DNA from: Sporocytophaga sp.
GTDB taxonomy: Bacteria; Bacteroidota; Bacteroidia; Cytophagales; Cytophagaceae
Assembly (NCBI RefSeq): GCF_017745095.1
Contig: NZ_JAGHZZ010000003.1
Span: 372,001 to 436,000, forward strand
Reading direction: 5' to 3'
DNA length: 64,000 nt
Shown: one piece after another, positions 1 through 51,323 of the stretch
Numbering within the stretch: position 1 is the first letter of the stretch
How the letters are laid out: the number at the start of each line of letters is the position of its first letter
Notes under the pieces: generated by a model
Databases searched by the model: none
The model's input: the letters and a program-made list of their open reading frames with translations, nothing else
Told to the model about the DNA's origin: nothing
Made by a program: the position numbers and the translations under genes

Positions 1-8
1 CCATCTGT

Positions 9-6530: not shown

Positions 6531-6557
6531 ATATTGTTTCAATTGAGATGCTTTAAA

Positions 6558-9869: not shown

Positions 9870-9879
9870 ATTAATTCAA

Positions 9880-14864: not shown

Positions 14865-14962
14865 TTTCCTAATCTCCTTTTTTTTAATGATAATTAATCG
14901 TCAGTATTTTCCCAGACCAAACACTTCTATACATTCAAGCATCTTGCAGACATAGCATTTAT

Positions 14963-18368: not shown

Positions 18369-19040
18369 CTACCGAAGGCAAAATTCTTGAACAAATATCG
18401 ATTCATAAAAATCTACTTTATCAATTTTATAATCAGATAACCTACTTGATGCCAAAGCTGCATTATATCCATTGGCAATTTGCAACTCTTGAACAAACCA
18501 TAGTTTATCATCATACTGTACATTACTATCTTTTACAGAAAGCTTTTCAAGAGGTATTGAAAAACCCCTACCATCAGCCTTGATTACGCTTTCCTTTATT
18601 GTCCAGTACTTATAAAACTCTTTTAAAGGATAACTCGCTTTATTTATTTCATCCCACTGATCAGAGTTCATTACATTTTGGAAATTATTAAGATCTAAAT
18701 TTTTGTTTTCCTCAATATCAATACCTAATCTGATATTTTTTCCAATTGCGCATATAACGAAATTGCCAGAATGGGAAATATTAAAATCCAGGTCAGGCAA
18801 TGACAAATGAGGACGCTTAAATGCTCCGTATTTCACATAATTCCAAATGTCTCCTTCTATATTATATGTCTTTAGAGCTTGCATTAGAAGCAATTTCCCA
18901 AACAAATGACAATGTCTGTCCTGCCATCGAATATAGCGTGAATTACTCTCCTGCAAATCCTTCGGTAATAAGGCTAAATAATCAGAATAAAAGCCTTCAT
19001 TCAATGGTTTTCCAAAGGAGGTAAAAAATATATTTATCAA
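18369..19040 (-). CDS. Sfp-type 4'-phosphopantetheinyl transferase
   Basis: Transfers phosphopantetheine from CoA to the conserved Ser of carrier proteins, and so activates the ACP domains of this cluster. The 223-residue length is normal for the Sfp group. Visible motifs are FNISHSG near 86-92, the Mg-binding GIDIEE at 106-111 and WTIKESVIKADGRG near 146-159. The frame starts at TTG (19040). No ATG lies in frame before residue 53, and the conserved N-terminus (INIFFTSF) requires this early start, so TTG is probably genuine. An AAGGA lies about 15 nt upstream. It begins 31 nt after the malonyl AT gene and ends the operon at the terminator downstream. Confidence 0.92.
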   Translation of the reverse strand: MINIFFTSFGKPLNEGFYSDYLALLPKDLQESNSRYIRWQDRHCHLFGKLLLMQALKTYNIEGDIWNYVKYGAFKRPHLSLPDLDFNISHSGNFVICAIGKNIRLGIDIEENKNLDLNNFQNVMNSDQWDEINKASYPLKEFYKYWTIKESVIKADGRGFSIPLEKLSVKDSNVQYDDKLWFVQELQIANGYNAALASSRLSDYKIDKVDFYESIFVQEFCLR

Positions 19041-19071
19041 GGTTATTACTTTAATTCCTTAACTACTAAAG

Positions 19072-20238
19072 TTATTTAACCGCTTTAATTTCTCTTAGAT
19101 CAAAATACCCATTATAGTCCTTCATATAAACGGCCGCACGATGACCGAATAAAATCATAGCTTCTGTTCTGGTTTCAAGCTGTGATTCATAAAAGTCCGA
19201 TTTGACCTTTGTTCCTATTGGATTAGATTTATTCCATTGGTCCACTAATTCTTTTGCAGTAAGCAAGCCTGCTTGACCTACTAATGGTTTTTCCTCTTTT
19301 GGTTGTGCAGCTTTTGTAGTGTCTAGTTCTTCTACTTTTATTTCTAAAGAAACATCAATACTTTTTTCTTTTAAAGCTGCAATCTTCAAATCATAATCTT
19401 TTTTAATCGCTCTAACCAGCTTTGTTAATACATCCCCCACACCAAGTTCTTCAAATTCTATTTCTCCTTGATTTAACAAGTAAGAAATACTATCAGTCCA
19501 TCTTACACAATTAGAGATTTGACTAGTTAAATCATGAGCGATCTTATCAAACTCATATGGTTTACCAGTAACATTTGCTATCACAGGGATATTTGGTTTA
19601 GAGAATTTTGTTTTCTTCACCACTTTTTCAAACTCCTTTTCGGCATCTTTCATATAGCGAGAATGAAAAGCTCCACTGGTATTGAGTGGAATAAACATAG
19701 CATTTGCATTTGTAAAATGCGGTTGTGCGTTGTTAATATCCTCTTTCAAGCCTGAAATAACAATTTGGGAAGGAGAGTTAAGGTTAGCAATATCTATAGT
19801 TGAAAGATTTGCATCCGTAAGAATTTTGCGGATCTGTTCATCAGATGAATTTAGAATAGCAGCCATGCCTCCTCCTTTTGCCTGACTCATCAACTCTCCC
19901 CTCTTTTTAACCAACTTAAGGCCATCTTCAAAGCTTAATACTCCAGCTGCCTGTAAGGCATTATATTCACCCAAACTATGACCAGCTAAAAAATCAGGGG
20001 GTGCTCCTCCATCTTTAATTTTCTTCTGATAAGACAATGCATTGACAACATACAATGCTGGTTGCGTATATTGCGTCTGATTCAATTTTTGCTCCGGGTC
20101 ATTCAGACAAAGTTCTTTGATTGAATACCCAAGTATTTTATCAGCTTTTTTAGTCAATTCCTGAAACTCATCAAAAAGGTTTCCACCCATTCCTTTTATT
20201 TGTGAGCCCTGCCCTGGGAATACATATGTTCTCTTCAT
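19072..20238 (-). CDS. Trans-acting malonyl-CoA:ACP acyltransferase
   Basis: Loads malonyl units onto the AT-less modules of the megasynthases. The motifs of a malonyl transferase are complete: PGQGSQ at 8-13, active-site GHSLGE with Ser88, the carboxylate-binding Arg113 at Ser+25 (KKRGELM) and GAFHS with His192, the sequence usual for malonyl specificity. The frame opens at a TTG (20247), but the ATG at 20238 (MKRTYVFPGQG) is the better start, giving 388 residues. Beyond the AT fold is an extension of about 85 residues (LLTAKELVDQWNKSNPIG through DYNGYFDLREI) that I cannot assign. It lies 34 nt after the decarboxylating KS gene and 31 nt before the PPTase. Confidence 0.93.
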   Translation of the reverse strand: MKRTYVFPGQGSQIKGMGGNLFDEFQELTKKADKILGYSIKELCLNDPEQKLNQTQYTQPALYVVNALSYQKKIKDGGAPPDFLAGHSLGEYNALQAAGVLSFEDGLKLVKKRGELMSQAKGGGMAAILNSSDEQIRKILTDANLSTIDIANLNSPSQIVISGLKEDINNAQPHFTNANAMFIPLNTSGAFHSRYMKDAEKEFEKVVKKTKFSKPNIPVIANVTGKPYEFDKIAHDLTSQISNCVRWTDSISYLLNQGEIEFEELGVGDVLTKLVRAIKKDYDLKIAALKEKSIDVSLEIKVEELDTTKAAQPKEEKPLVGQAGLLTAKELVDQWNKSNPIGTKVKSDFYESQLETRTEAMILFGHRAAVYMKDYNGYFDLREIKAVK

Positions 20239-20272
20239 TTTAATCAAAATTTTCGGTTATGTTTTTATATTC

Positions 20273-21547
20273 TCAATCTCGCTTTAATACAATAGATGTA
20301 TTGATGCCTCCAAAGCCAAAAGAGTTACTCATGGCAATGTCTATTCTGTGATTAATTGCTTCAGCTCCGCAGAATTTTAAATCATTACAAATCGGTTCTT
20401 CCAGATTTTTATTTGGATGAAGAAATCCTTGCCTCATTTGAATAACTGTAGCTATTGCTTCTACAAGACCTGCCGAATACAGACAATGGCCAGTCAAACC
20501 TTTAGTAGCATTAAGCCTTAAAGCAGCAGTATGCCCTCCAAATACATCACAAATAGCATCAGCCTCTGTCTTGTCTCCCAGAGCTGAGGAACTCCCATGG
20601 GTATTCAAATAATCAACCTCTGAAGCTGATAATCCTGCCTGATTAAGGGCTGAAAGCATGGCTTTTACTTCTCCATTTTTATTCGGATCAGAAGAGCTAT
20701 TTCCATCAAGGTTTATGGAACCTCCTTTGATTTCCGCAAGAAAAGGAGCTTCCCTTTTTGATGCACTAGCTAAGGATTCAAGAATGATGCAAGCACTCGC
20801 TTGACCATAAATAAATCCTTCATGCTGTTTATCAAAAGGCCGACAAGCTTTTTCTGGTTGATTAATATATTTCTTACCACCCATTGCTCCAATGTTGATG
20901 AACCCTTGGATATCCATCGGTGACAAATCAGCTATAGTACCTACCACAACGCAAACATCTGCGAAGCCTGAATGTACAAGCTGGTATCCTTTAATGATAC
21001 CTACATTCCCGGTGGCAGAAGCACCTCCAACTACAAGACCTTCTCCATTGATCCCGAATAGTTCACTTAAAACCCCGACCTGATTTGTCTCCAAAAATTC
21101 AAGGGCATATCTAGGTGATAAATACTCAGGATTCTCTCTGAATTTCTGGATCAAATCATACTGAAAGTTTTGTGTGCTATTCTGGCCTGCTACTATTAAT
21201 CCTATTCGTTCTGATTGTAATTTACTTTGAAATAATTGAGCATGTTGCCAGGCTTCCAAAGCAGATATAATTGAAGCTTGGATAGCAAAAGGAGCTCTCC
21301 TTCCAAGGCGTTTAGCATTGACCAATTTTTCTTCAGGAACATCCTGAAAACGGTTTAGAAGTTCTAAAAAAGAAAAGTTTTGTAGTTCGGCAGCAATGTT
21401 GACAGATATCTTTGGTTCCTTCTGGCTTGTCGAAAGTCTGATTCCTGATTCACCCTTCATTAAAGCATTACAGAATGAGGAAATATTTTCACCTATAGAA
21501 GATACGATCCCCATTCCGGTTATCCCAATTTTATTACTAGTCATCAT
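20273..21547 (-). CDS. Decarboxylating ketosynthase of the HMG-synthase (beta-branching) cassette
   Basis: A free-standing FabF-like ketosynthase of 424 residues. The nucleophile Cys is replaced by Ser177 (VVGGASATG, where active enzymes have ACATG), while the two active-site His are kept (NTHGSS at 317 and TGHCLYSAG at 354). In HMG-synthase cassettes this Cys-to-Ser form decarboxylates malonyl-ACP to acetyl-ACP, the donor for HMGS. It sits directly after the small donor ACP and before the malonyl AT, which fits that job: AT loads the ACP and this KS decarboxylates it. The two tandem ATGs at 21547 and 21544 are both possible starts. Confidence 0.92.
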   Translation of the reverse strand: MMTSNKIGITGMGIVSSIGENISSFCNALMKGESGIRLSTSQKEPKISVNIAAELQNFSFLELLNRFQDVPEEKLVNAKRLGRRAPFAIQASIISALEAWQHAQLFQSKLQSERIGLIVAGQNSTQNFQYDLIQKFRENPEYLSPRYALEFLETNQVGVLSELFGINGEGLVVGGASATGNVGIIKGYQLVHSGFADVCVVVGTIADLSPMDIQGFINIGAMGGKKYINQPEKACRPFDKQHEGFIYGQASACIILESLASASKREAPFLAEIKGGSINLDGNSSSDPNKNGEVKAMLSALNQAGLSASEVDYLNTHGSSSALGDKTEADAICDVFGGHTAALRLNATKGLTGHCLYSAGLVEAIATVIQMRQGFLHPNKNLEEPICNDLKFCGAEAINHRIDIAMSNSFGFGGINTSIVLKRD

Positions 21548-21622
21548 CTATCTCTGTTGATAAAAAGCTAAACATTAAATAGTGAACTTTGCAACTTCGT
21601 ATGATTGCAATAAATCGTTAAT

Positions 21623-21880
21623 TTATTTAAGTTCTACTTTACCCACATTTTCAGATAACACTTTAACCAAACCCTCAATATTGCTGACTTGAGCAAAACT
21701 CATCAAAGGTAATTTGATTCCCAATTCTTCCATTGAAATCGTAACAACTTCCATTCGATCAATAGAGTTTGCGCCTAATTCCTTTAGGTTTTTTTCGATG
21801 GAAATCATCTCTGGATTAAGATCGGGAAGAACCTCCATAATAACATTCTTCACTACTTCATAAACTTGTTCTGTTGCCAT
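21623..21880 (-). CDS. Stand-alone acyl carrier protein, donor ACP of the beta-branching cassette
   Basis: An 85-residue acyl carrier protein with the phosphopantetheine site at Ser39 in GANSIDRMEV. It lacks the Trp at Ser+6 found in the acceptor ACPs of the megasynthases, as expected for a donor. Acetyl held here is passed to the HMG synthase encoded at 33.8-35.0 kb. A good AAGGAG ribosome-binding site stands just upstream of the ATG. The 298-nt gap between it and the hydrolase gene upstream contains no gene I can support. Confidence 0.93.
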   Translation of the reverse strand: MATEQVYEVVKNVIMEVLPDLNPEMISIEKNLKELGANSIDRMEVVTISMEELGIKLPLMSFAQVSNIEGLVKVLSENVGKVELK

Positions 21881-22178
21881 AATTTACTCCTTTCTTACTT
21901 ATAAAATTGTTATATATTAAATTGCTTGTATGCATTAACTAGGCTAAAAAATATTAAACCTAAGTCTGTCCTACATGAGTGATGCAAATACTTTCAATAG
22001 CTCATTCAGTAATATGGTCATTCGCCTATCTAAAAGTATTCTTAAAATTTCACTTAATTATCAATTGCGTAACAAATCTCGATGAACATAATTTTAGCAA
22101 ACGGCGCTTGCATAATTTTGGACATTCGACTGATGTTAATGAATGTTCATTTGAAGAGATTCCTTACCTTATGAATAA

Positions 22179-22883
22179 TTACCGGAAATCAAATAAACTT
22201 AACTTGTTTTGCACATGTCTCATTCGATATGCGGCAAAATCATTTACGTTTTTGAATTGCAGATAAATATTGCATTTTAATAACTCTGAAAATTTCTGTC
22301 CGGGAGGTTTATCATAGACATGGCCAGGGAAAATACGTGTATCTGGCTTTAAGAAACTGCGTAGCTGATTTAAGCTGTTAAACATATTATGAGCAGCAGC
22401 CATATCCGGACATATGCCACAACCTTCTGCAAAGAGGGTATCACCGCTAAACAAATTATTTCCTACCAGATAACAAGTACTTCCAGGAGTATGACCAGGT
22501 GTTAAAATTGGCAATATCCTTATTTGCCCAACAAACCATGGAGTCATGTCTATTCCTAATAATTGCGGCTCCGAATATCCAGAAAAAGCTATCTCCTTAT
22601 TTGACATCCAAATCGGACAGTTGTATTTATCAGCCAACGGACGAGCTAAGTCCACATGGTCCGGATGAGAATGAGTAAGCAATATTCCACTCAGACTTGA
22701 TTGGGTATTCATTAAAGCCTCCTCTACCTTCTCAATATTCCAAGCCGGGTCAACAATAATTGATTGTTTGCTATTATTATCAACCACCAAATAGCTGTAA
22801 CTTATAATAAACATATGTGTCATTCTCAGAACAACAACCTGTGTTTCTCCAACATTCCCTGCATCTATATAATTTACATCCAT
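22179..22883 (-). CDS. Metallo-beta-lactamase-fold hydrolase, glyoxalase II-like (BaeB/PksB type)
   Basis: The metal-binding signature HSHPDHVD (71-78) and later GHTPGS and FPGHVYD identify a glyoxalase II-like hydrolase. Such genes are frequent in trans-AT clusters (BaeB, PksB), where they are thought to hydrolyse thioesters, though their role is not settled. The open frame could begin at a TTG (22946), but the ATG at 22883 gives a normal 234-residue protein and leaves a short gap after the decayed tRNA-like element. It is followed by the donor ACP gene. Cytoplasmic, with no signal peptide. Confidence 0.85.
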   Translation of the reverse strand: MDVNYIDAGNVGETQVVVLRMTHMFIISYSYLVVDNNSKQSIIVDPAWNIEKVEEALMNTQSSLSGILLTHSHPDHVDLARPLADKYNCPIWMSNKEIAFSGYSEPQLLGIDMTPWFVGQIRILPILTPGHTPGSTCYLVGNNLFSGDTLFAEGCGICPDMAAAHNMFNSLNQLRSFLKPDTRIFPGHVYDKPPGQKFSELLKCNIYLQFKNVNDFAAYRMRHVQNKLSLFDFR

Positions 22884-22950
22884 TACAAAATAATCAAGGT
22901 TGCTTGCCTTATAGAATGATACCGTTAACTGAATTCGAATATTCAAATTG

Positions 22951-23016
22951 CGCTTAATGGATTCGAATTAAAGTAAGGTTTTATCGATCTTCCCCTTTGT
23001 TACATGGGACATAGCC
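22951..23016 (-). pseudogene. Degenerate tRNA-Cys-like element (copy 3)
   Basis: Related by eye to the two intact copies across its length. It shares TTCGAATCCATT and AAAACCTT on the minus strand. The acceptor stem and the anticodon stem no longer pair fully, and the anticodon loop reads CGATAAA. It looks like a decayed member of the tandem array. Confidence 0.65.
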
Positions 23017-23085: not shown

Positions 23086-23156
23086 AGGCGCCGAATGGAT
23101 TCGAACCACTGAACAAGGTTTTGCCGACCTTTCCCTTTCCTCTTGGGTACAGCGCC
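23086..23156 (-). tRNA. tRNA-Cys(GCA)-like element lacking U33 (copy 2)
   Basis: A 71-nt cloverleaf can be drawn by hand: acceptor 7 bp (GGCGCTG with CGGCGCC, one G-U pair), three-pair D stem CCC/GGG with A13 and A22 unpaired and G18G19 in the loop, anticodon stem AAGGT/ACCTT, loop CGGCAAA, 4-nt variable region, T stem AGTGG/CCATT and T loop TTCGAAT. The anticodon GCA and discriminator U73 are tRNA-Cys identity elements. Position 33 is G rather than U. CCA is not encoded (T is followed by CAG). It may be a specialised or a non-decoding tRNA; a pseudogene is possible. Confidence 0.7.
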
Positions 23157-23224
23157 TTAAAAAAGGTAATAGCAATTAAGATAAAATCCTAGTTACATTT
23201 ATCTCAACTAAAAATATTATGCTG

Positions 23225-23295
23225 AGGCGCCGAATGGATTCGAACCACTGAACAAGGTTTTGCCGACCTTTCCCTTTCCTCTTGGGTACAGCGCC
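23225..23295 (-). tRNA. tRNA-Cys(GCA)-like element lacking U33 (copy 1)
   Basis: Identical over all 71 nt to the copy at 23086-23156, with the same complete cloverleaf, GCA anticodon, U73 and G33. It begins about 40 nt after the stop of the AT-like gene on the same strand, so it would be carried within the operon transcript and need tRNA-type end processing to be released. No CCA is encoded. Confidence 0.7.
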
Positions 23296-23334: not shown

Positions 23335-24300
23335 TCAAATTACATTTTCCAATAAAGAAGTTTTCAATTTTTCAATCGCATTCAAGTCTCTCCCAAATTG
23401 ATTAATCATTTGAAAAGAAACAGAACCTGAATTAGACGGAAGCATGTACTTAACAAAAGTAGCAAGTGTTCCACTTGGGCCAGAATCGATAAACACATAA
23501 TCACCCTTCTCCAGAATCTTATCGACAGTTTGTTCAAAATTAACCGGGAAGCGAATTACTTCCCATAAATAATCTTCCTTCAACTCTTTTATAACTTCAT
23601 TTCGTGATGCAGATATAATCGGAACACTAGCAGAGGAAAACTTTATCTTCTTTACAACTTGCTTAAACTCCTCTTCGATCGGATCAATAAGTTCAGTATG
23701 GAACCCATATTTCACAGGTAATACCTGGGATATTATATTTATATTATTTAAACACCCCTGAAGATTCTGAATAACATGAGGTAGCCCACAGACCACAAAA
23801 TTCTCCTGAAAATTTGTTCCTGTACACCAGCACTGTTCAAACAAATCAGGGGACTTGGCCATGATAGCTTTTGACTCCATAATTGCTAGCATAGCGGCAC
23901 TCTGCGTTCTTTGTTCAGCTAACTTAGCGATATCAACAACTAATTGAATACCGTCTTCCAGCGAAACAGAACCAGAAATAACGCTAGCAGTTAACTCCCC
24001 AAGACTATAGCCTAACAGAAAATCAGGTTGAATTCCCAGTTCCTTAAGTACTTTAACTTGACAGTACTCAATACATAGCAAAGCTGGGTTAGAATAAAGA
24101 AGGCGATCAAATGGTTTGCTTTTCCCTTCCTTTCCATAAAGCACATCCACTAATGAAGTTTGAATTAATGGAGAAACAATTTCATTACAATGGTCCATCC
24201 AATACCGGAACTGTGCATTATTCTCATAAAGTTCTTTTCCCATTTGATAGTATTGAGAACCTTGCCCCGAGAACATAAATATGACTGGTTTATTCATCAT
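23335..24300 (-). CDS. AT-like acyl hydrolase (proofreading type) of the trans-AT system
   Basis: A 321-residue protein of the FabD fold with FSGQGSQ at 10-16, GYSLGE with Ser99, and His201 in GFHTE. The Arg that binds the malonyl carboxylate at Ser+25 is replaced by Ile124 (LVVDIAKLA), and GHSLGE has become GYSLGE. Loss of that Arg argues against malonyl transfer and fits the acyl hydrolase group (PedC-like), which removes stalled acyl chains from the carrier proteins. The frame extends upstream to a TTG at 24411, but that overlaps the preceding oxidoreductase gene. The ATG pair at 24300/24297 begins the conserved domain and is preferred. A second, less likely reading is an AT with unusual substrate choice. 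Confidence 0.85.
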   Translation of the reverse strand: MMNKPVIFMFSGQGSQYYQMGKELYENNAQFRYWMDHCNEIVSPLIQTSLVDVLYGKEGKSKPFDRLLYSNPALLCIEYCQVKVLKELGIQPDFLLGYSLGELTASVISGSVSLEDGIQLVVDIAKLAEQRTQSAAMLAIMESKAIMAKSPDLFEQCWCTGTNFQENFVVCGLPHVIQNLQGCLNNINIISQVLPVKYGFHTELIDPIEEEFKQVVKKIKFSSASVPIISASRNEVIKELKEDYLWEVIRFPVNFEQTVDKILEKGDYVFIDSGPSGTLATFVKYMLPSNSGSVSFQMINQFGRDLNAIEKLKTSLLENVI

Positions 24301-24382
24301 AAAGAATCTTAAGTGCTTTGTGTCTGCTTGTATGTCTGATATACTTCTCAATCTACTTCCGAAAAATAACAGAATTATTATT

Positions 24383-25366
24383 TCAGAATTTAGTACTATG
24401 TTGAACAGCAATTACAACTTTTCCTCCTGGATGTCCTGTCCCATAATGCTGAAGAGCTTTTGCAGTCTCGCTTAATGGATAACATCTATCAACAACCGGT
24501 TTTATTCTCCCGGCTTCTATAAGCTCTTTAACAAAAAGTAAATCCTTAGCATTTGGATTAACAGCCCAACCTCCAACAAGCTTTTTACCATCTCTTTTGA
24601 ATACCATTGGCCCAATGAGCATGTCCTGGAAAATCCTCGTAACAGAAGGTCCTCCAGCGCTAACGTAAACACCATTTGGCTTCAAGGCTCTCTTATGATC
24701 AAAAATCGAACGATAAGCAATTGCAAAGATAAGGTCATATGTCTGTCCGTTTTTTGTATAATCCTGCTTGGTATAATCTATCAAATGATCTGCACCAAGT
24801 GTATACAACATATCGAAATTCCTTGAACTACAAACACCCGTCACTTCCGCTCCAAAATACTTGGCAATCTGAACTGCAAATGAACCTATACCACCTGATG
24901 CGCCAAAAATTAAAACCTTTTGACCTTTCTGAATACCACCTTTATCACGAAGTGCCTGCAAGGCTACAAGTGATCCCTGAGGTACAGCCGCAGCTTCCTC
25001 AAAAGATATGTTTACTGGCTTAGGAACTAACTCATGTTCTGGAACAGCGGTGTATTCGGCATAAGCACCGAAAGCAGTAGAAACACCAAAAACTTCATCA
25101 CCTGGCTTAAACTTAGTAACATCTTTACCGACCATTACTACACGTCCTGAAATATCACTCCCAGGAATTTTAATTCTGGGTTTAACTAATCCGCTATCCA
25201 AGAGACGGACAAAGAATGGTTTTCCCTCAATAATCATCAGATTATGAGTAGTGGCAGAAGATGCGTGCACTTCTAACAGAACTTCATTATCTCTAGGAAC
25301 AGGCTTTTCTACTTCTTCGAGCTTGAGCTCTGAAAGTCCATACTTTAAACATGAGATCGCTTTCAC
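24383..25366 (-). CDS. Zinc-free MDR oxidoreductase (quinone oxidoreductase/enoyl reductase-like), 327 aa
   Basis: A medium-chain dehydrogenase/reductase with the nucleotide-binding motif VLIFGASGGIGS near 149-160 and an N-terminal GroES-like domain (GDEVFGVSTAFGAYAEY). The Cys and GHE ligands of zinc alcohol dehydrogenases are absent, which places it with quinone oxidoreductases and MDR enoyl reductases. No ER domain exists in the visible modules and no FMN-type trans-ER gene is visible, so a trans-acting enoyl reductase role is possible. That is inference. The start is GTG (25366). It precedes the acyl hydrolase gene by 82 nt. A related enzyme is encoded at 36.4-37.3 kb. Confidence 0.87.
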   Translation of the reverse strand: MKAISCLKYGLSELKLEEVEKPVPRDNEVLLEVHASSATTHNLMIIEGKPFFVRLLDSGLVKPRIKIPGSDISGRVVMVGKDVTKFKPGDEVFGVSTAFGAYAEYTAVPEHELVPKPVNISFEEAAAVPQGSLVALQALRDKGGIQKGQKVLIFGASGGIGSFAVQIAKYFGAEVTGVCSSRNFDMLYTLGADHLIDYTKQDYTKNGQTYDLIFAIAYRSIFDHKRALKPNGVYVSAGGPSVTRIFQDMLIGPMVFKRDGKKLVGGWAVNPNAKDLLFVKELIEAGRIKPVVDRCYPLSETAKALQHYGTGHPGGKVVIAVQHSTKF

Positions 25367-25615
25367 AATTTTTCTGGTTGTTTTTAGAATTAACTATATA
25401 ATACCCCTCTACTCTTTTGCATTGGGATAGATGCTACCAAATATTATTGAATTAGTAACATCAAACTATAAGTAAATTACTAACTATACAAAAAATGAAA
25501 GCTTAAAGTTAAACCAGGCAATAAAAAATTCAAATATTTTCTATTTTAATTTCAAAGAAGCTATTCGTTGTTACACCATATATTATTTCATTTAATATCG
25601 AAGTATTTAGTAATA

Positions 25616-26311
25616 TTAATTGGCCTTAGCACTCTTATATTTATCTTTCTTTAATAGATCCCTAACCATATTCATATTATAGCTCCATACATTTGTCAAG
25701 ACCACATTCTTTACGAAATAAGGTATATTTCCTCCAATATCAGCATCAGCAATTACCTCGAAATCTACTTCTCCATTAGGAAGAGGTGTGAGCTTATAAA
25801 TGTCATTCATAATTTTCACACGTTCTATATTTTCTATAGGATGCGTTTTTGCAGGAGCAGCCAATACATTTACTTCAACTGCTTTAGTTTTCGGATCTTG
25901 AGAATGATGCATTTGCAAAACGAAATCTCTCGTACCAATTGGAAATGGTAAGTCTACTTTGTATGAATAGTATGCACTATAAAAGGTCCCTTGTTCTACT
26001 TTTTCAAACATCTTCCAGTCTTTTATGCCCAGGTCCTGAACTGTAGCATCGCTCTTCAAAAAGTAAAGAATATCGTCAATGCTCGATTTCAGTCTCATTT
26101 TTGCTTTTACCTGCTTCAAACAAGAACCGGGAGTTTTTAATGTCCAGATTTTGATTCCATTTTCATCTTGTACGAGCGTCCATTCATTTGAACCCGAATT
26201 CGTCCATAAAATATGTGAAATAAATAATACTACCGTAAGCGCTATCACACTAATCAATAAAAATTTCTTAGTTCTTCTTGGAGGCTTCTCTTTTAGATCG
26301 TTCTTTTTCAT
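25616..26311 (-). CDS. Membrane-anchored START/SRPBCC-domain protein (231 aa)
   Basis: A single N-terminal membrane segment (about 17-38, FLLISVIALTVVLFISHILW) after a Lys/Arg-rich leader is followed by a START-like lipid-binding domain. Landmarks are WTLVQDENGIKIW, PFPIGTRDFVLQMHHS and a C-terminal helix. START domains hold hydrophobic ligands, so it may bind or shuttle the polyketide or membrane lipids. The positively charged N-terminus predicts the domain faces the periplasm. It lies between the DUF4386 gene and an MDR oxidoreductase gene. The 249-nt gap downstream holds no gene I can support. Confidence 0.8.
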   Translation of the reverse strand: MKKNDLKEKPPRRTKKFLLISVIALTVVLFISHILWTNSGSNEWTLVQDENGIKIWTLKTPGSCLKQVKAKMRLKSSIDDILYFLKSDATVQDLGIKDWKMFEKVEQGTFYSAYYSYKVDLPFPIGTRDFVLQMHHSQDPKTKAVEVNVLAAPAKTHPIENIERVKIMNDIYKLTPLPNGEVDFEVIADADIGGNIPYFVKNVVLTNVWSYNMNMVRDLLKKDKYKSAKAN

Positions 26312-26465
26312 TTTCGATTATTAATGAAATAAATTTAAAATTATAAACTATAGTTAATCATTGTGGATGTATCGACTTCTAATAGACTTTATTAGTCTTT
26401 AATCAATTTTATTAACTGTTTTGAAGTGAAACAAAGTCTTCACTCGGGACTATCTTTTAGATAAG

Positions 26466-27218
26466 TTATGTTATATCACCATAATTAATTCTACTTGCAG
26501 AAGGAGTAGTCACTGAAGGTTTTCCTCCTTTCAACAAAAGCCAAAAGGCAAATGAAATCTCCCCAAAAAATGACGGAATACCTACAACTGCTCTAAACAG
26601 TTTTTCATACTTTTTATAATCTGGCAAAAGAAAGCTTGCAAATGAGTTGATCAGAAAACCGAAAGCTACTATCATAAATAAAATCCCCAGGATTCTTGGA
26701 ACATAGCTTGACTTAAGAATTAAGTAACCAAGGATGAATATATGAATGCCAAAAAAGACAAACCCGATTCGCCATCCATATTTAAATGCATCAAGATATA
26801 GCATTACCTGAGCATATATCTGACTTTTTCCAAACACCGCTGAGTAGTCACCATTCGTTAGGATATGTAAAATGTTAATCTTGTTAATCAGCACCACAGA
26901 AGATATAACCATATAAATCATTCTAAGCCAGGCCGCGAGTATAGCGAGGTTATTATTTACCTGTTTCAAAAAAACATAAAGTGCCCATGCTACTATCAAA
27001 TCACACACATAAATAACTATATGATGGCATATCTCCACGCGAAATAACATTTCATTCGCTAATATATTGTGCGATGTTTTTACTGCATCACCTGGTACGA
27101 TAAATCTCCGGCGGATAATAGCTTCAACGATGATGGCTACTGCGAACATGATTAAATATGTACACCCAGCAATTATAGCTGGTTTTCGGGAAGATATTTC
27201 TTGTTTATCAATTGTCAT
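26466..27218 (-). CDS. DUF4386 family integral membrane protein (250 aa)
   Basis: Six or seven hydrophobic segments with the layout of DUF4386: AGCTYLIMFAVAIIVEAI near 17-34, an IVIYVCDLIVAWALYVFL segment, AAWLRMIYMVISS, GWRIGFVFFGIHIFILGYLIL, PRILGILFMIVAFGFLINSF and a final IPSFFGEISFAFWLLLKG. The biochemical role of the family is not known to me. Its position between the outer-membrane protein and the START protein suggests a part in export or self-protection, which is inference. Confidence 0.8.
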   Translation of the reverse strand: MTIDKQEISSRKPAIIAGCTYLIMFAVAIIVEAIIRRRFIVPGDAVKTSHNILANEMLFRVEICHHIVIYVCDLIVAWALYVFLKQVNNNLAILAAWLRMIYMVISSVVLINKINILHILTNGDYSAVFGKSQIYAQVMLYLDAFKYGWRIGFVFFGIHIFILGYLILKSSYVPRILGILFMIVAFGFLINSFASFLLPDYKKYEKLFRAVVGIPSFFGEISFAFWLLLKGGKPSVTTPSASRINYGDIT

Positions 27219-27259
27219 TTTGAATGCTCTTATTAATAAATTAATAGTACTACGTTTTC

Positions 27260-28594
27260 CTAGTATTGATATTGAATTCTAAAATTAACTTGCTTTTGAT
27301 CGGCATACATCAACAGGATGTTTCTTTTATCCATTACATCAGGATAACCTATTAAGAGGGAAAGATTCACTTTATCATTCCACTGATATGTAGTTGTTAA
27401 CATATGCAGAAAGGATGGATAATATACTAACCAAAGTGTCATCCAGTTAACAGACAAGTTTTCATTTAAAAACCTCTTGGTTATGTTCAGTGTCAAAGTA
27501 CTATAATTCCTTGGAAAAATCTGTAACTTATCGTTCCAACCAACTATATGACTATTTGCACCTTCCAGACTGGCATTGAACTTTGATCCACGGGAATAGT
27601 TCAATGCCAATGATGCATCAACAACATCTTTCTGTTCAATGCTAATAGCGTTCTCCCTAACAGCATAAAAATTCCGAGGAGATTTCCATGCTACTTCGCC
27701 CTTGAACAAAAATGCGCCTTTTGCATGATTCAGGGTCATTCCCACCAATTTACTCCTTTGCTTTCTGACAAAGAAATCATTATCCATCAAATGAGCAGCT
27801 AAAATGCTGAAATCGCTATTACCAAAGGTCTTTTTCCATTTCATTCCATATTCAAAATCATTACCATTTATTCTCCGCTTTGGCGCTTCAATATTTCGCA
27901 ACATTTCAATGCCATATGCGCTTCCAACTCTGGGATATTCATTATATGCCGGTATAGGAATAAAAAAGAAAGTCCAATCACCAATCTTTGAGAATTGATC
28001 CACTGTAATCATTGGTTGACCAATCCGGGATTCTTCCGGCGCGACAAAAAATAATTCTGAATAATTCCATGGACTTATTACATCCGTAATGGCTGTAAAA
28101 TCTGATTCACCCAAGACCAAGAGTTGAATACCTGCTTTTATACTGGTTCGACCAAAACTAGCTTGCAGAAAGGCTTCCCTGGTTCTTAATCTAAACCAAA
28201 TATCCTTATCTCTGGCTTCTGCTTGATGGTCATTGCTCCAAAAGGCCAATAATTTTGAGTCGTACTGAAAATACAATAAATTTTTAAAGAAGAATTTAGA
28301 GTATTCTAACCTAATTGCTGTTCGATTCTTTATAAACCTTGTCGGAGATTCAATTTTATAGGAAGCTTCATGCATCAATGTTAACCTCATTGGTGTAAGT
28401 ACATTCCTGGACCAAAAGGAGGCGGAATCCGATCCGTCTCCAATTGGTTCAAGACTATATATTAAACCAGCATCGCCAGATGTTAAACTAGTATCATTTA
28501 CTATCAAACTACTATCACAAGGAGTCTGCGCAACCACAATAGTGTATAGAAAACAAAGTGAAATATTAAAAAAAATACTAGCTACCGACTTCAA
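27260..28594 (-). CDS. Outer-membrane beta-barrel protein, probable export partner (444 aa)
   Basis: A signal peptide (about 1-23, ending VVAQ) is followed by repeated short amphipathic strands with aromatic ends and a C-terminal strand NFRIQYQY ending in an aromatic residue, the usual signal for outer-membrane insertion. The overall pattern resembles barrel proteins encoded beside RND/MMPL pumps (DUF1302-like), but I cannot assign a family with certainty. The frame starts at a TTG (28594) and no ATG lies near, so TTG is the probable start. It follows the LolA-like gene by 53 nt and may give the pump an outer-membrane exit or anchor. Confidence 0.72.
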   Translation of the reverse strand: MKSVASIFFNISLCFLYTIVVAQTPCDSSLIVNDTSLTSGDAGLIYSLEPIGDGSDSASFWSRNVLTPMRLTLMHEASYKIESPTRFIKNRTAIRLEYSKFFFKNLLYFQYDSKLLAFWSNDHQAEARDKDIWFRLRTREAFLQASFGRTSIKAGIQLLVLGESDFTAITDVISPWNYSELFFVAPEESRIGQPMITVDQFSKIGDWTFFFIPIPAYNEYPRVGSAYGIEMLRNIEAPKRRINGNDFEYGMKWKKTFGNSDFSILAAHLMDNDFFVRKQRSKLVGMTLNHAKGAFLFKGEVAWKSPRNFYAVRENAISIEQKDVVDASLALNYSRGSKFNASLEGANSHIVGWNDKLQIFPRNYSTLTLNITKRFLNENLSVNWMTLWLVYYPSFLHMLTTTYQWNDKVNLSLLIGYPDVMDKRNILLMYADQKQVNFRIQYQY

Positions 28595-28647
28595 AATTGA
28601 TAAATAAAATTAGGTCTAACAAAAAACTAAAACATGCATACTCCAGA

Positions 28648-29526
28648 CTATTTCATGTAAGTACGAAACTTTGCTAAGTTCTTTTCCCTGAAAGCAAAGT
28701 CTGTAAGACTTCTTTGAGTCAAAAATTCATCCGAAGCTTCCATGTTATATGCAACTGATATCAATCTTAATTCAGTTACTCTTCTCGAAACAAGATTATT
28801 CATAGTGGTGACTCTCACTACCCATACTTTGTCTATAAGCTCAACACCTTTTCTGTTCAACTGCTTACAGAGCTTTCCTCTATGGTCATAAAGATCTTCT
28901 TTCAAAACGAGTAATCTCTCTTTGTCAATCCATGATGTAATTTTTCCATATTTGGTCTTTTTGGCACGCAATGCAGTAGGTACTGATTCTATAACCCAAA
29001 CTTTCCGGTTATCGTAAGTTTCTTCTCCGATAAGTTTGTATGTATAGTCTTTAACTTTTCTACTGCTCATATCCTCAACGGAAAATTCAGATCCAAAAAA
29101 GCTTCCGCTCTCATCGCTATCTTCACTGCTAGACACCAGACGTTTAACTTTTCCGATTGCTGACAAATACAACCAGGTATCATTATCCTTACCTGCTTCC
29201 AGATTCTCATAAGTTAACATACCAATACCTTTATCCTTAGATGGTTCAAGCACAACAGCAATGGATCTTGTTTCATTACCATAATGCTTTTGGGCACTTT
29301 CCAAAACTGATATTCTAGGATTTTCAGAGCAGCTCAAGCTTCCCCCTTTTATTTCATATTTGCAAGTAGTTAATTTAATCTTGGTGATAGATGTTTTATA
29401 AGATTCTCTGCTCACACTATCAACTCTACTGATTATCTTTAATGCATCCTGTGTTGAAGCTGGAACTAAAGCAGTAAGACTAAAAACTGATAAAATGATT
29501 ACAAAAATTATCTGAAATGATTTCAT
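28648..29526 (-). CDS. LolA-like outer membrane lipoprotein-sorting protein (292 aa)
   Basis: A cleavable signal peptide (IIFVIILSVFSLTALVPAS) precedes a periplasmic domain with the pattern of the COG2834 LolA-like family: DTWLYLSAIGKVKRL near 112-127, the acidic SSSEDSDESGSFFGSEFS, YTYKLIGEETYDNRKVWVIE, and a C-terminal LTDFAFREKNLAKFR. Members are commonly encoded next to MMPL/RND transporters and are thought to receive hydrophobic cargo. The gene follows the pump by 18 nt, which supports a joint function in carrying cargo across the periplasm. Confidence 0.82.
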   Translation of the reverse strand: MKSFQIIFVIILSVFSLTALVPASTQDALKIISRVDSVSRESYKTSITKIKLTTCKYEIKGGSLSCSENPRISVLESAQKHYGNETRSIAVVLEPSKDKGIGMLTYENLEAGKDNDTWLYLSAIGKVKRLVSSSEDSDESGSFFGSEFSVEDMSSRKVKDYTYKLIGEETYDNRKVWVIESVPTALRAKKTKYGKITSWIDKERLLVLKEDLYDHRGKLCKQLNRKGVELIDKVWVVRVTTMNNLVSRRVTELRLISVAYNMEASDEFLTQRSLTDFAFREKNLAKFRTYMK

Positions 29527-29544
29527 ATTTTTTATATTGATTTT

Positions 29545-32136
29545 CTATGCTCCTATTAACTCTTTGTACTGCTCTTGATTGGATTCGAACTTTGTTCCTT
29601 TTTTCTGGAAGTTTAATTTAAACACCATAATTAATGCAGGAAGCAAAAACAGGTCACACAACAAACCTGCGAAAATGGCCAGAGAGCCAAACTTTCCGAC
29701 GTTAGCAGTCCCAGTACTTTCTGCAATGGACATTATACCAAATCCAAGTCCTAGAATTAAAGAAGTAAATACGATTGCCTGACCTGACTCCTTCATCGTA
29801 TGCTTCAAGGCCCTCTTTATATTCCCATCTTTCAAAACTTCAAGTCGATATTGACTAATAAAAGTTGAAGTGTCATCAACTGAAACACCTATTATAACTG
29901 GAGCTAACATCATTGTGAAAAAATCCAGAGGCACTTCGAACCAACCCATTATACCGAAGGTCAGTACAGAAGGAATTAGGTTTGGTATTATTGAAATTAA
30001 GCCCGCTTTAAATGACCCAAAAACCAACAATAAAATAATACTGATAACAAAAAGAGCTAAACCAAAACTTTTAAACTCATTTTGTGTAAGATAATCAGCA
30101 GTCTTCATAGCCAGTGCAAACCCACCCGTAACAGAAACGAAAGTATCCGGATACTTCTTTTTGATTTTACTCACAGCCTCATGAATATCCTTTTGCATCT
30201 CATCAAATACTCTGGTATATTCGTATGAGCCATAAGTGTGCAATGTTACCGAGATATTTGCTTTTCTGTAATTATCATCAATCATCCTTCTACGATCATC
30301 CGGATTAGCATTATTAAACAAGAAGAGTGTTTGAGAAAGTTGTTTCTCGTCAGAAGGAATAATATATTTATCTGCCTGTCCCTGATTTAACTTTTGATAC
30401 GAATCCTTTACAACATTAACTATAGACGAAGTCGTCACTACATACTTGGTATATTTCTTTTCAAACTTTTGTTGTAGCTCATCTATAACTTTTAATACTT
30501 GTGGGTCCTGAAGACCATCATCTTTTCCCAAATCAAGGTAGATTGCAATACGCGAAGAGCCAGACATTTTCTCATCAACAATTCTGACATTTTTATTCCA
30601 TCTGGAATCTTCAGGGAAGGTATCGGTTAAGCTGGTATCTACTTTTACCATTGAGGCACCTATTATGCAAATAACAAATACAGATAAGAATGAGATGATA
30701 GGAAGGATTGGTCTTTTTTCTACAGCTGGAATAACCTTATCCAGTGATTTTTGTAGAGAAAGAGCAAAATTCGGAACAATACGACCAATAAAGCTAAGCT
30801 GTTTCTTGTCGGTCTTTTCAATCTTTGGAACTGGAGGCCATAAATCGAGCATTAATGGAAGTAAGAAAATTGACAGGAACAGAGCCAGAAAAATACCCAA
30901 CGTAGACATCCATGCGAAATTTTGAATAGGAACCAGGTCGGAAATATTTAAGGCCAATATACCCGCCATGTTTGTAATGGCCGTCATAAGCATTGGAGCT
31001 CCTGTGCTTTTATAAGTATGTCTAAGTGCAGAGCTATGATCATGATTCGTCTTACGATAAAACATGTATCCAGACATCAAGTGAACCGAATCTGCTATAC
31101 CTACAGTAAGGATCAGCAAAACCGTTAGGATTAGAAAACTTGTAAAAGGTAAACCCAGTAGAGCTGAAATACCTAGAGTCCAGATTGTAGTTAAGAAAAC
31201 AATGAGCATTCCCCAAACTACGGCAGATAATGAACGGAACAGGAACCATAACAGGACTATTATGATGACAAATGCAGCCAAGTATAACATTCCCATTTCT
31301 GCCACCATTATGTTTTGATACTCTGAGCCAGCAGTATTTCCAACTGCATAATATTCCAGATGATTTGCATATTCAGGTTTGTCAATAATCGCTTTTATTG
31401 CATTGTTCAAAGCGGTATAGTCTGCCATATCTGTCGGTTTGAAGCGTGGCGTTTCTTTTTTTGCCGAAACATTGTCTTTTAATTTTGAACCATCCATCAC
31501 AATTTCCATATCAGCAGCAACCGCCTGATCCGCCTGCACATCCGAATCCTCAGGGATTGCACCAAAATCCGTTTCAATATACATTCCTCCATACTTCAGG
31601 TCCTTTGAAAAATATTGTAGAGGAAAGCTTCTTTGTGCTTCTGCAGTTTTTCTGATCTGATCTAGCTCTTCCGCTGATGTTGGGATTGTACTACTTACTA
31701 AAGGTTTGGAGATAAGCATATCTTCTTCAACAGCTAACACAGGTGCATTAACTAGACTGTTGATTTTTACAATATGATCAAGTGCAGACTTTTCTCCTTC
31801 CTTTAACTTTGACCTGTAATCAAGAAGCTCCTCACGAATTCCTCTTATTGCTTCCAGCGATTTGTGAGAAAACACATTTCCATCTTTGGGCTTATAAACT
31901 ATATAAACACCATCTTCACTTCCAAACTGAGCGTGATACTCATTAAATGCAACATATACAGGATCGTTCTTTGCAAACCACCCTTCAATTGTAAGATCAA
32001 ATTTGGACTTCTGCATTCCAAAGAAACATGCTACAGTAGCACCAATGAAAAACAGTGAGAAGAGCAGCTTCCTTTTCCGAACCTGATCTGGAAGATTGGC
32101 AAAGTACTCCGAAATGGAGTTAGTGATTCTTTTCAT
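29545..32136 (-). CDS. MMPL/RND-superfamily transporter (863 aa)
   Basis: An inner-membrane pump with the duplicated RND layout. It has one N-terminal membrane segment (about 25-42), a large periplasmic loop, five segments (about 270-430), a seventh segment near 480, a second large loop, and five final segments (about 690-850). Conserved intramembrane Asp residues appear in GIADSVHLMSGY and GVSVDDTSTFISQYR, as expected for proton coupling. At 863 residues it matches MMPL and HpnN-like lipid transporters rather than drug efflux AcrB (about 1050). It probably exports the polyketide or a lipid conjugate with the LolA-like protein and the outer-membrane barrel encoded next. It starts about 100 nt after the ECH2 gene. 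Confidence 0.88.
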   Translation of the reverse strand: MKRITNSISEYFANLPDQVRKRKLLFSLFFIGATVACFFGMQKSKFDLTIEGWFAKNDPVYVAFNEYHAQFGSEDGVYIVYKPKDGNVFSHKSLEAIRGIREELLDYRSKLKEGEKSALDHIVKINSLVNAPVLAVEEDMLISKPLVSSTIPTSAEELDQIRKTAEAQRSFPLQYFSKDLKYGGMYIETDFGAIPEDSDVQADQAVAADMEIVMDGSKLKDNVSAKKETPRFKPTDMADYTALNNAIKAIIDKPEYANHLEYYAVGNTAGSEYQNIMVAEMGMLYLAAFVIIIVLLWFLFRSLSAVVWGMLIVFLTTIWTLGISALLGLPFTSFLILTVLLILTVGIADSVHLMSGYMFYRKTNHDHSSALRHTYKSTGAPMLMTAITNMAGILALNISDLVPIQNFAWMSTLGIFLALFLSIFLLPLMLDLWPPVPKIEKTDKKQLSFIGRIVPNFALSLQKSLDKVIPAVEKRPILPIISFLSVFVICIIGASMVKVDTSLTDTFPEDSRWNKNVRIVDEKMSGSSRIAIYLDLGKDDGLQDPQVLKVIDELQQKFEKKYTKYVVTTSSIVNVVKDSYQKLNQGQADKYIIPSDEKQLSQTLFLFNNANPDDRRRMIDDNYRKANISVTLHTYGSYEYTRVFDEMQKDIHEAVSKIKKKYPDTFVSVTGGFALAMKTADYLTQNEFKSFGLALFVISIILLLVFGSFKAGLISIIPNLIPSVLTFGIMGWFEVPLDFFTMMLAPVIIGVSVDDTSTFISQYRLEVLKDGNIKRALKHTMKESGQAIVFTSLILGLGFGIMSIAESTGTANVGKFGSLAIFAGLLCDLFLLPALIMVFKLNFQKKGTKFESNQEQYKELIGA

Positions 32137-32239
32137 AAATTTTATGATTGATTAAATTATTGTCAAAAATTAATATGGAATGGTTAGCTAGCAAACGAAG
32201 GCAAAATCTTTAGATTTAGACTATGACTTATTTATTATA

Positions 32240-32989
32240 TTACTTTCCAAAGAGGTCTTTAATCCTATCTCTTACTTCAGGTTGAAGGAATGTTATTTCA
32301 TGCATTGCCTCCTCTTGTTCGATTACTTTTGGAAGACCGGCCCGGAGGTCTGCAACCAAATGATCCTTTAAAGTAACAAGTGACACCCTTGGTTTTTCAG
32401 CAATCGTCTTTGCCAACTCCAAAGCATATTCCATTACTTGTTCCCGTGGAAGTACAGGAAAAGGAATACCTCTTTTCTGCAACTCTTCTCCTCTATATGT
32501 TTTAGCAGAAAGCATCATTTCTTCAGCCAAACTTATTCCCAGCTTTTTTGGAAGGATGAAAGTTGATCCCATACCTGGAGTAAAGCCATATTTCATAAAG
32601 TTGGTAGTATAAATACTCTCCCTACTTAGAATCACAAAATCAGCAAACATTCCCATTACAAAACCACCTCCTATCCCATGCCCTTGCATTGCTGAAATTA
32701 CCGGAATCGGGCAATTCAAAGCCAGGCTATAAAGATCAATATCCGTAAACCTTGCCTTTCCGTCAGAAATTTCAAGTAATCCTTCTTTGGTACCTCCACT
32801 GGCAAAGTAGCTTTCATAACCAGTTAATATAACTACTTTATATTGAGCCTGAGTTTTTATAGTTTCAAAAGCTTGAATCAGCCCTTCTGCCAAAGGAACA
32901 GAGAACATATTCTTGCTTTCCTTATCCTGCATTTTGATCTGGACAATTCCAGCACTTATCTCTTTAAGTTCAATAACCTCCTCTGACAT
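32240..32989 (-). CDS. ECH2-type enoyl-CoA hydratase-family decarboxylase of the beta-branching cassette
   Basis: A crotonase-fold protein of 249 residues. Family marks are the oxyanion-hole segments ASGGTKEGL near 63-71 and GHGIGGGF near 103-110, with YGFTPGMGSTFI near 134-145, typical of ECH2 decarboxylases (PksI, CurF N-terminus). After ECH1 dehydrates the HMG-like intermediate, ECH2 removes CO2 to leave a beta-methyl or related branch. It starts 2 nt after the ECH1 stop. It is closely similar by eye to the third crotonase domain inside megasynthase A, so the cluster has a free and an embedded version. Confidence 0.92.
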   Translation of the reverse strand: MSEEVIELKEISAGIVQIKMQDKESKNMFSVPLAEGLIQAFETIKTQAQYKVVILTGYESYFASGGTKEGLLEISDGKARFTDIDLYSLALNCPIPVISAMQGHGIGGGFVMGMFADFVILSRESIYTTNFMKYGFTPGMGSTFILPKKLGISLAEEMMLSAKTYRGEELQKRGIPFPVLPREQVMEYALELAKTIAEKPRVSLVTLKDHLVADLRAGLPKVIEQEEAMHEITFLQPEVRDRIKDLFGK

Positions 32990-32991
32990 AA

Positions 32992-33783
32992 TTAAGCTCC
33001 TTCCCAGGGAAATTTCCCTGTTTTTACGTATCGTGAAATTTTAGCAAGATTATTGTGATCCGAGAACACTTCAATATTAGCATCAAATGCCTTTTGCCTT
33101 GACCTCAAAAGGTCTTCATCCAAGGATCCTATATACTTCTTGTAGCGTGCAACCCCTTCCTTAGATAATCGTCTAAGTCTCAGCAAATGCTTCCTCAATA
33201 AATTTTCACTACTTTCTTCATAAGCATCCACTAGGCCCCATTCATGAGCTTGTTTGGCTGTGATAGGGGACGTCATTAATGTCATATAATTCGCTTTGGA
33301 AAATCCCATTCGACGAATTAGAAATGGCAATACACAAGCTGGCATTAATCCGAAAAGAAGTTCAGATAAACTGAATACTGCTTTTTCTTCACATAACACG
33401 ATATCACTGGCTGCAACAAACCCTATCCCACCAGCATTGGCCTTTCCCCTTACATGAGCAATTGTAATATAAGGTCCGGAGGTCATCTGTAACCACAGAT
33501 TGTAAAGAGGTTCCGGATCTTGCTCATGATGCTGAGTTTGACTTTCAAGGCTTTCCTGAATCCCTTTAAAATCCGCACCAAAGCAAAACACTTCTGGCAA
33601 ACCTTCTATTACAACAATCTTAACTTCATTTTCACATTGAGCCAGCACTTCGGAAAACTCCTCAATAAGGCCATCATTAATAGTATTATTCGCATCTGGG
33701 CGATACATCTGTATATAACAAATGTCGTCTTCGAACCTTGCCTTGATATTTTTATAAGGCTTTGAACTGACTAAGACACCCAT
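32992..33783 (-). CDS. ECH1-type enoyl-CoA hydratase-family dehydratase of the beta-branching cassette
   Basis: A crotonase-fold protein of 263 residues with CFGADFKGI near 67-75, KANAGGIGFVAASDIVL near 114-130 and FSLSELLFGLMPACVLPF near 137-154. The last segment is characteristic of PksH/CurE-like ECH1 enzymes, which dehydrate the 3-hydroxy-3-methylglutaryl-type intermediate on an ACP. Its ATG overlaps the end of the HMGS gene by 13 nt, and ECH2 follows after 2 nt, so the three are translated together. Confidence 0.93.
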   Translation of the reverse strand: MGVLVSSKPYKNIKARFEDDICYIQMYRPDANNTINDGLIEEFSEVLAQCENEVKIVVIEGLPEVFCFGADFKGIQESLESQTQHHEQDPEPLYNLWLQMTSGPYITIAHVRGKANAGGIGFVAASDIVLCEEKAVFSLSELLFGLMPACVLPFLIRRMGFSKANYMTLMTSPITAKQAHEWGLVDAYEESSENLLRKHLLRLRRLSKEGVARYKKYIGSLDEDLLRSRQKAFDANIEVFSDHNNLAKISRYVKTGKFPWEGA

Positions 33784-35030: not shown

Positions 35031-35058
35031 ATATTTATTTATGGTAAATTTTTATAAA

Positions 35059-35100
35059 ACTATTATATGTATTAATAGTATATAGTATGTATGCTATATA
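35059..35100. promoter_or_regulatory. Two adjacent inverted repeats upstream of the HMGS gene
   Basis: ACTATTA (35059-35065) pairs with TAATAGT (35073-35079) around TATGTAT, and TATATAG (35079-35085) pairs with CTATATA (35094-35100) around TATGTATG. The two dyads abut and lie 30-70 nt before the HMGS ATG. They could form an operator or weak hairpins, but the region is very AT-rich and chance is possible. The rest of the 309-nt gap (35031-35339) holds no gene I can support. Confidence 0.3.
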
Positions 35101-35339
35101 CCGGTACTGATTGGGTATTAATTAAAATATGCTGTTATGAAAATAGAAGTTATTAATAGCTGTTTAAAAGACTTCTTTTCAATATTGCCATAAGGCAAAT
35201 AATATGCGTACTCAAAAAAACTATCTCTGTAAGAGTTAGTAAAAATAATTATCAGGAATTGAACTACAAAATAGATATGAAATTTTAATATGAAGATATC
35301 GTCAAATTTCTCCAGCAATATTATAACCTCATATTTGTA

Positions 35340-36314: not shown

Positions 36315-36408
36315 ATTCTCCTCCTATTTTTATTATTATGTTTACTATTTCTTGGGTTAACAACAATTCTGATTAGTCCTACAAATCTATTTTACAAATC
36401 CTCAGACA

Positions 36409-51290: not shown

Positions 51291-51323
51291 CCTCTTTCTC
51301 TTTTTATGGTTGTTCCTAATGAA

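Follow-up and report, generated by a model that had tools for sequence, protein, structure and literature searches.

Two tRNA-Cys genes with G33 in a polyketide gene run

The window, that is, the whole stretch of 64,000 nt analysed here, contains two tRNA-Cys(GCA) genes of 71 nt with the same sequence, both on the minus strand. The copy that lies upstream in the orientation of the operon is found at 23225..23295, and the second copy at 23086..23156. ARAGORN, run over the whole window, calls both of them as tRNA-Cys(gca), and the Rfam tRNA model matches each with 48 bits (E 3.6e-7; the gathering score is 29). No further tRNA was found in the window by either program. Both genes have U73, G18G19, A13/A22 and a normal T loop, the anticodon loop reads C32-G33-G34-C35-A36-A37-A38, and the CCA end is not encoded in either gene. 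The initial annotation had described two tRNA-Cys-like genes with exactly this set of features, and this description is borne out by both programs.

With the GCA anticodon and U73, both copies show the marks of a tRNA-Cys, but the U33 of elongator tRNAs is missing: we see G33 in all four intact copies over the two species compared below. By sequence, the genes are derived from tRNA-Cys and yet depart from an ordinary elongator tRNA. The predicted minimum-energy fold is a cloverleaf of -21.4 kcal/mol, the stability of which is unremarkable for the composition (z -0.88), so that the case for real tRNAs is made by the family score and by conservation. A third copy on the same strand (about 22946..23016), identified as a member of the repeat family D2 and by alignment with the other copies, has decayed. 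Its predicted fold has lost the cloverleaf (z 0.63) and its loop has become CGATAAA, in which the G at position 33 can still be read.

The pair lies within a long run of genes that all point in the same direction. Directly upstream is the gene of a trans-acting acyltransferase (23335..24411, minus strand; PF00698, E 1.1e-36). Directly downstream we find the gene of an MBL-fold hydrolase (22179..22883, minus strand; PF00753, with a match to the SolJ-type model NF041804 below cut-off), the start of which is taken to be the ATG at 22883-22881, behind the decayed third copy. Pfam matches and spacing assign an ACP (21623-21880), a KS (20273-21547), an AT (19072-20247) and a PPTase (18369-19040) to the tail of the run (18369..22178, minus strand). 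The region 24383..37347 (minus strand; Pfam and NCBIfam) encodes oxidoreductases, an HMG-CoA-synthase-like beta-branching enzyme, two ECHs, an MMPL-type transporter, and LolA-like and unknown proteins, and the PKS genes at 37408..64000 (minus strand; Pfam) continue past the window. In total, the run has 26 open frames and one chorismatase-like frame over about 84 kb, from a UpxY-type antiterminator gene at its head (C33:474263-474829, or L051:18263-18829; 123.5 bits, cut-off 100) to the PPTase gene at 390369. Its largest gap, of 1,231 nt, holds the chorismatase-like frame, and the tRNAs are found in the second-largest.

Two minor observations concern the content and the extent of the cluster. 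The chorismatase-like frame (L051:2-865) resembles FkbO/Hyg5 and scores below the cut-off of that model; it suggests a possible chorismate-derived starter unit for the PKS. About 18.8 kb after the PPTase gene (window 1-16378 and L049), with DUF6603 and Nal1/trypsin-like proteins, have no counterpart at this position in the sister species G001, and we therefore place this stretch outside the conserved cluster.

Next, we compared the pair with the other tRNA genes of the host genome (6.63 Mb, rated 99.97% complete). An ordinary tRNA-Cys with U33 is found on a contig other than that of the window (G000:C63:6711-6781), which rejects the idea, left open by the initial annotation, that the G33 form might be the only tRNA-Cys of this host. 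The genome-wide search, in which 150 of 465 first-look candidates were scored, gave 46 ARAGORN tRNA genes, and G33 is unique to the pair among them: U33 is present in 43 of the 44 others, and the remaining one, a tRNA-Val(GAC) (L028, G000:C63:38751-38825), has C33. A 47th Rfam tRNA match (36 bits, L037) has no ARAGORN call. Apart from the other host tRNAs there are also five tightly packed genes, for His, Pro, His, Gln and Pro, whose arms are odd, at G000:C23:8400-8848 (L033).

The G33 tRNA differs from the ordinary tRNA-Cys at 18 of 71 positions. Ten of the differences are in stems, and the eight others are at positions 9, 13, 16, 20, 21, 33, 44 and 46. Neither molecule has a non-standard pair among its 20 stem pairs, four of which show two-sided and two one-sided changes, and no double changes are left when the structure is slid along the alignment. 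A shuffle control reaches the observed values in 29 of 500 cases, which is a weak result, as only two sequences are compared.

Could the pair simply be an addition to the decoding capacity, helping in the translation of the huge PKS proteins despite G33? It is true that the GCA anticodon and A36-A37-A38 have been kept. However, Cys codons make up only about 1% of the gene run (276 of 26,920), an unaltered duplicate of the ordinary tRNA would serve this purpose better, and the uniqueness of G33 among the tRNA genes found points away from ordinary decoding. We consider this explanation distinctly unlikely.

GCA, U73 and the core of the molecule are identity elements for CysRS, and G33 would be a decoding defect. 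For CysRS, the host genome gives one match over the cut-off, which lies on a different contig, besides a weak partial match; a second, dedicated CysRS was not found among them. A tRNA that can be charged but decodes poorly could also be a regulator that adjusts sulfur metabolism while the cluster is active, be it as an uncharged decoy, as a sensor of the cysteine supply or as a competitor for CysRS. For such a role there is no known partner, and the two tRNAs are all that Rfam detects in the window. A regulator thus seems rather improbable to us.

Conservation of the pair between two species

A sister species of the same genus (G001) carries the same cluster, with blocks that align at about 88-92% DNA identity. 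Both G33 genes are present there, each identical to its counterpart at 71 of 71 positions. When the intergenic stretch is aligned over its full length, none of the 142 tRNA columns shows a difference, while the rest of the alignment has 204 identical columns among 293 ungapped ones. A further 95 columns contain gaps, and many of these belong to the ends, which are unequal. Of the 809 fourfold sites in eight flanking genes, 242 differ. At this rate, the probability of finding one 71-nt gene unchanged is about 1e-11, a rough figure that treats the sites as independent. The ordinary tRNA-Cys is likewise identical between the two species, as one expects for a functional tRNA. Gene conversion could account for the agreement of the copies within a genome, but not for the agreement between the species.

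The decayed third copy has decayed in both species. Its position next to the intact pair is what speaks for pseudogenes or leftovers of a mobile element, which the initial annotation had named as the alternative. On the other hand, the same copy works as an internal control that shows the fate of a sequence at this site when selection is absent. The pseudogene explanation fails for the two intact copies because of their complete identity in diverged surroundings, the decay of their neighbour and the stems that were kept intact with compensatory changes; we regard it as refuted for them and, as an account of the locus, as hardly credible. Judged by these comparisons, the two G33 genes are under strong purifying selection and are not pseudogenes. 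That they are real, selected and derived from tRNA-Cys appears close to settled.

Selection on the pair might also be explained by a role in processing of the transcript. The tRNAs could serve as operon punctuation, with RNase P and RNase Z cutting the long mRNA so that the AT gene is separated from the MBL, ACP, KS, AT and PPTase genes, irrespective of the amino acid. The pair has a gene of the long co-directional run on either side, its position in the sister species is the same, and such a role does require a conserved fold. It does not require a conserved anticodon loop, yet none of the four copies differs from the others in the loop, the anticodon or U73. Moreover, one copy would be sufficient, there would be no need for it to differ from the ordinary tRNA-Cys, and the linkage to the cysteine-handling protein described below would be a coincidence. 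We take punctuation to be unlikely.

A DUF-SH protein upstream in the same run

The first gene after that of the UpxY-type antiterminator encodes a PKS protein of 4,917 aa (G000:C33:459260-474013, which would be 87260-102013 in window numbering). It lies about 76 kb upstream of the tRNAs, beyond the window and in the same co-directional run. The statement of the initial annotation that no aminoacyl-tRNA-using enzyme can be recognised holds within the window; the window, however, ends before this gene, which encodes a candidate. The protein starts with an ACP (PF00550), followed by a match to PF09924 (LPG_synthase_C), a beta-eliminating lyase (PF01212), a KS with further PKS domains and a C-terminal thioesterase. 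The second and third of these domains correspond to the DUF and the SH of the leinamycin literature; the didomain is found at C33:471224-473716 and the PF09924 match at C33:472679-473425.

DUF and SH are collinear in one PKS protein, as they are in the leinamycin family (LnmJ, GnmT and WsmR). In that family the order is KS-ACP-ACP-DUF-SH-TE, whereas the host protein has ACP-DUF-SH-KS and further domains, and the host cluster, unlike the leinamycin-family clusters, has its own tRNA-Cys. As far as the domain comparison goes, the host didomain is thus the DUF-SH of the leinamycin literature in another module order, and the host PKS is a DUF-SH PKS of a non-leinamycin kind. We see the didomain also in four PKS clusters on Streptomyces and Kitasatospora plasmids, where the matches have 37-40% identity and extend over 93%, 93%, 95% and 88% of the query. 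In three of these four clusters, the annotated ones, an LnmK-type gene and an HMG-CoA synthase gene are found next to the didomain.

In the PDB, the SH is matched best by 9cen (E 8.9e-56), an entry with the name "Polyketide Synthase Protein"; tyrosine phenol-lyases come after it. The residues K653-D654-F655 are invariant in all six sequences. According to the available text of PMC8479088, relatives of the SH are (thio)cysteine lyases with thiocysteine as the preferred substrate. The available parts of PMC8479088 and PMC7618002 propose a conjugate addition of thiocysteine by the DUF and a C-S cleavage by the SH; they ascribe no demonstrated role to the DUF and present the source and the attachment of the sulfur-bearing cysteine in DUF-SH assembly lines as an open question. 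The word tRNA does not occur in either of these texts. Among titles and the openings of abstracts, a search that leaves subscription papers and preprints largely uncovered, we found none that links DUF-SH or leinamycin to aminoacyl-tRNA, nor any description of a dedicated tRNA in a PKS cluster.

What kind of protein is the DUF? All six sequences, from both phyla, match PF09924 with 56.9-64.5 bits (E 1e-15 to 1e-17), above the curated cut-off of 27.5 bits, and in the host genome the DUF is the sole match to this family. A single-sequence search of the PDB gives nine matches (best E 4.5e-6), all of which are, by name, LpiA, MprF and aminoacyl-phosphatidylglycerol-synthase entries or their close kin. 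A profile search gives 27 matches. Thirteen of these (E 4.7e-9 to 0.015) are of the LpiA/MprF kind and include synthases that depend on alanyl- and lysyl-tRNA as well as three chains labelled aspartate-tRNA ligase; the remaining 14 have unrelated names and E 0.23 or worse.

The residues N297-x-x-F300-K301 of the DUF are invariant in all six sequences. For DhpH-C, a transferase that depends on Leu-tRNA, the available text of a 2026 review (PMC12945691) lists N325, F328 and K329 as functional residues. The spacing is the same in both proteins, by residue count and not by alignment, and at the count that corresponds to the third DhpH-C residue, W284, the DUF has no Trp (C256). Section 7 of the review, as far as its text was available, describes enzymes that use aminoacyl-tRNA in biosynthetic pathways, as we propose here for the DUF; none of these examples is a PKS domain, uses cysteine or is presented there with a tRNA gene of its own. 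The words DUF2156, leinamycin and polyketide are absent from the text of the review.

By its profile matches, the DUF is a member of the family of aminoacyl-tRNA-dependent lipid transferases (MprF, LpiA, and the Ala-PG and Lys-PG synthases). It differs from them in its place within a PKS, beside an ACP and a PLP lyase, and in its acceptor, presumably a polyketide, whereas members of PF09924 normally modify lipids; its E-values to solved members are modest. From the family and the conserved FK motif we infer that the DUF would transfer an amino acid from a tRNA. Alternatively, it could have kept the fold and lost the use of tRNA.

A possible use of the pair and its distribution

With a probability of roughly 0.6, we think that the G33 tRNA-Cys pair serves the DUF-SH polyketide assembly line as a dedicated tRNA. 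The tRNAs would be transcribed together with the PKS gene run of about 84 kb behind the UpxY-type antiterminator, excised by the usual tRNA enzymes and then provided with CCA. The single CysRS of the host would charge them, as they have retained GCA, U73 and the core. G33 and the other changes would make them poor in decoding, and the charged pool would thus stay available to the pathway. The DUF of ACP-DUF-SH would then take cysteine or thiocysteine from the tRNA onto the ACP-bound chain, and the PLP-dependent SH would cleave the C-S bond, leaving -SH or -SSH on the polyketide. For relatives from the leinamycin family, this cleavage by the SH has been shown in vitro (PMC8479088, available text). 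E. coli CysRS, given plain cysteine, produces mostly tRNA-bound cysteine per- and polysulfides (PMC5660078, available text). Together with the preference of the SH for thiocysteine, this loading suggests cysteinyl- or thiocysteinyl-tRNA as the donor for the DUF.

A non-ribosomal donation of cysteine or sulfur had been named as a speculative use in the initial annotation. It has become the best-supported reading because the same run encodes a DUF of an aminoacyl-transferase family that uses tRNA and an SH related to (thio)cysteine lyases; the support comes from sequence comparison. Several points speak against a dedicated tRNA. The tRNA genes and the DUF-SH gene are separated by 76 kb and do not share an intergenic region; the published proposal is a conjugate addition of free thiocysteine (PMC8479088 and PMC7618002, available text); and four actinobacterial DUF-SH clusters are free of tRNA genes in the scanned stretches. 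As a wider reading, the DUF of the leinamycin-type family may be an aminoacyl-tRNA-dependent transferase that loads (thio)cysteine on the PKS chain, with the host cluster having additionally evolved its own translation-impaired tRNA-Cys; we hold this tentatively, at slightly less than an even chance.

If this is true, a polyketide synthase would receive a building block that is carried by a tRNA, and CysRS would be the source of the persulfide in leinamycin-type DUF-SH drugs. The combination of a tRNA-Cys that lacks U33 in the cluster and a DUF that matches aminoacyl-tRNA transferases offers a concrete and quickly testable answer to how the sulfur is acquired and attached. It would join the charging machinery of translation with polyketide chemistry, and it would suggest odd tRNA genes in biosynthetic clusters as a mark for genome mining and a route to reprogram sulfur insertion.

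There are partial precedents. In staphylococci, a tRNA-Gly isoacceptor that is poor in translation is reserved for the non-ribosomal transferase of cell-wall synthesis. The proposed role of the G33 tRNA-Cys is alike in that an isoacceptor is set aside for such a transferase; the staphylococcal tRNA differs in the amino acid, the sequence changes and the pathway, and it lies outside a biosynthetic gene cluster. In the 3-thiaglutamate (PEARL) pathway, Cys-tRNA feeds a small-molecule pathway through TglB, but on a peptide scaffold and with an enzyme like lanthipeptide dehydratases, and the abstract mentions no dedicated tRNA (PMC9016710).

We then asked how the pair and the didomain are distributed. 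Host and sister species have both, with one orientation and about 76 kb between them, and the searches detect neither in two further members of the genus (G002 and G003). As the linkage rests on two related species, it counts as one evolutionary event. Related clusters gave a divided answer: the tRNA elements are found in the one sister-species cluster and are absent from what was scanned of the four actinobacterial plasmid clusters. There, ARAGORN finds no tRNA in 42 kb around the didomain or in 49-50 kb beyond it on one side (about 92 kb each), and Rfam finds nothing in three of the four 42-kb stretches. Thus, DUF-SH needs no cluster-borne tRNA. The tRNA in the cluster would be a local refinement and, if the DUF uses tRNA generally, other hosts would supply ordinary Cys-tRNA. 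Wider searches covered the order, class and phylum with overlapping sets of 390, 395 and 395 genomes and scored at most two candidates per genome; beyond the host and the sister species, no match that spans the DUF is among those listed. The other listed matches begin at query position 305 or later and are relatives of tryptophanase and tyrosine phenol-lyase.

In addition, we searched for the pattern CGGCAAA-N11-13-GGTTCGAATCC. In genome contigs there are at least 120 matching stretches; none of the 120 listed was called as tRNA-Cys and 105 were variable arms of tRNA-Ser. The pattern was poorly suited and says little on the spread of the element. In viral contigs, 14 of 57 stretches were called as tRNA-Cys. 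They represent nine distinct sequences, all with G33, and the combination of G33 with the GCA anticodon is therefore not unique to the host cluster.

These nine tRNA-Cys-like genes with the CGGCAAA loop come from phages in IMG/VR (L181, L187, L188, L192, L196, L198, L205, L215 and L220). Outside the anticodon loop and the T loop they are unlike the window element, and their discriminator bases vary. No record of the phages collection matched L198, nor did the window tRNA match any phage record. Among plasmid records, 18 matched the window tRNA at 0.01, and the one inspected has U33. Finally, on plasmids of Bacillus velezensis/subtilis (L307 and L308) a tRNA-Cys gene, with U33 in the one inspected, is found beside a gene of the glutaredoxin family.
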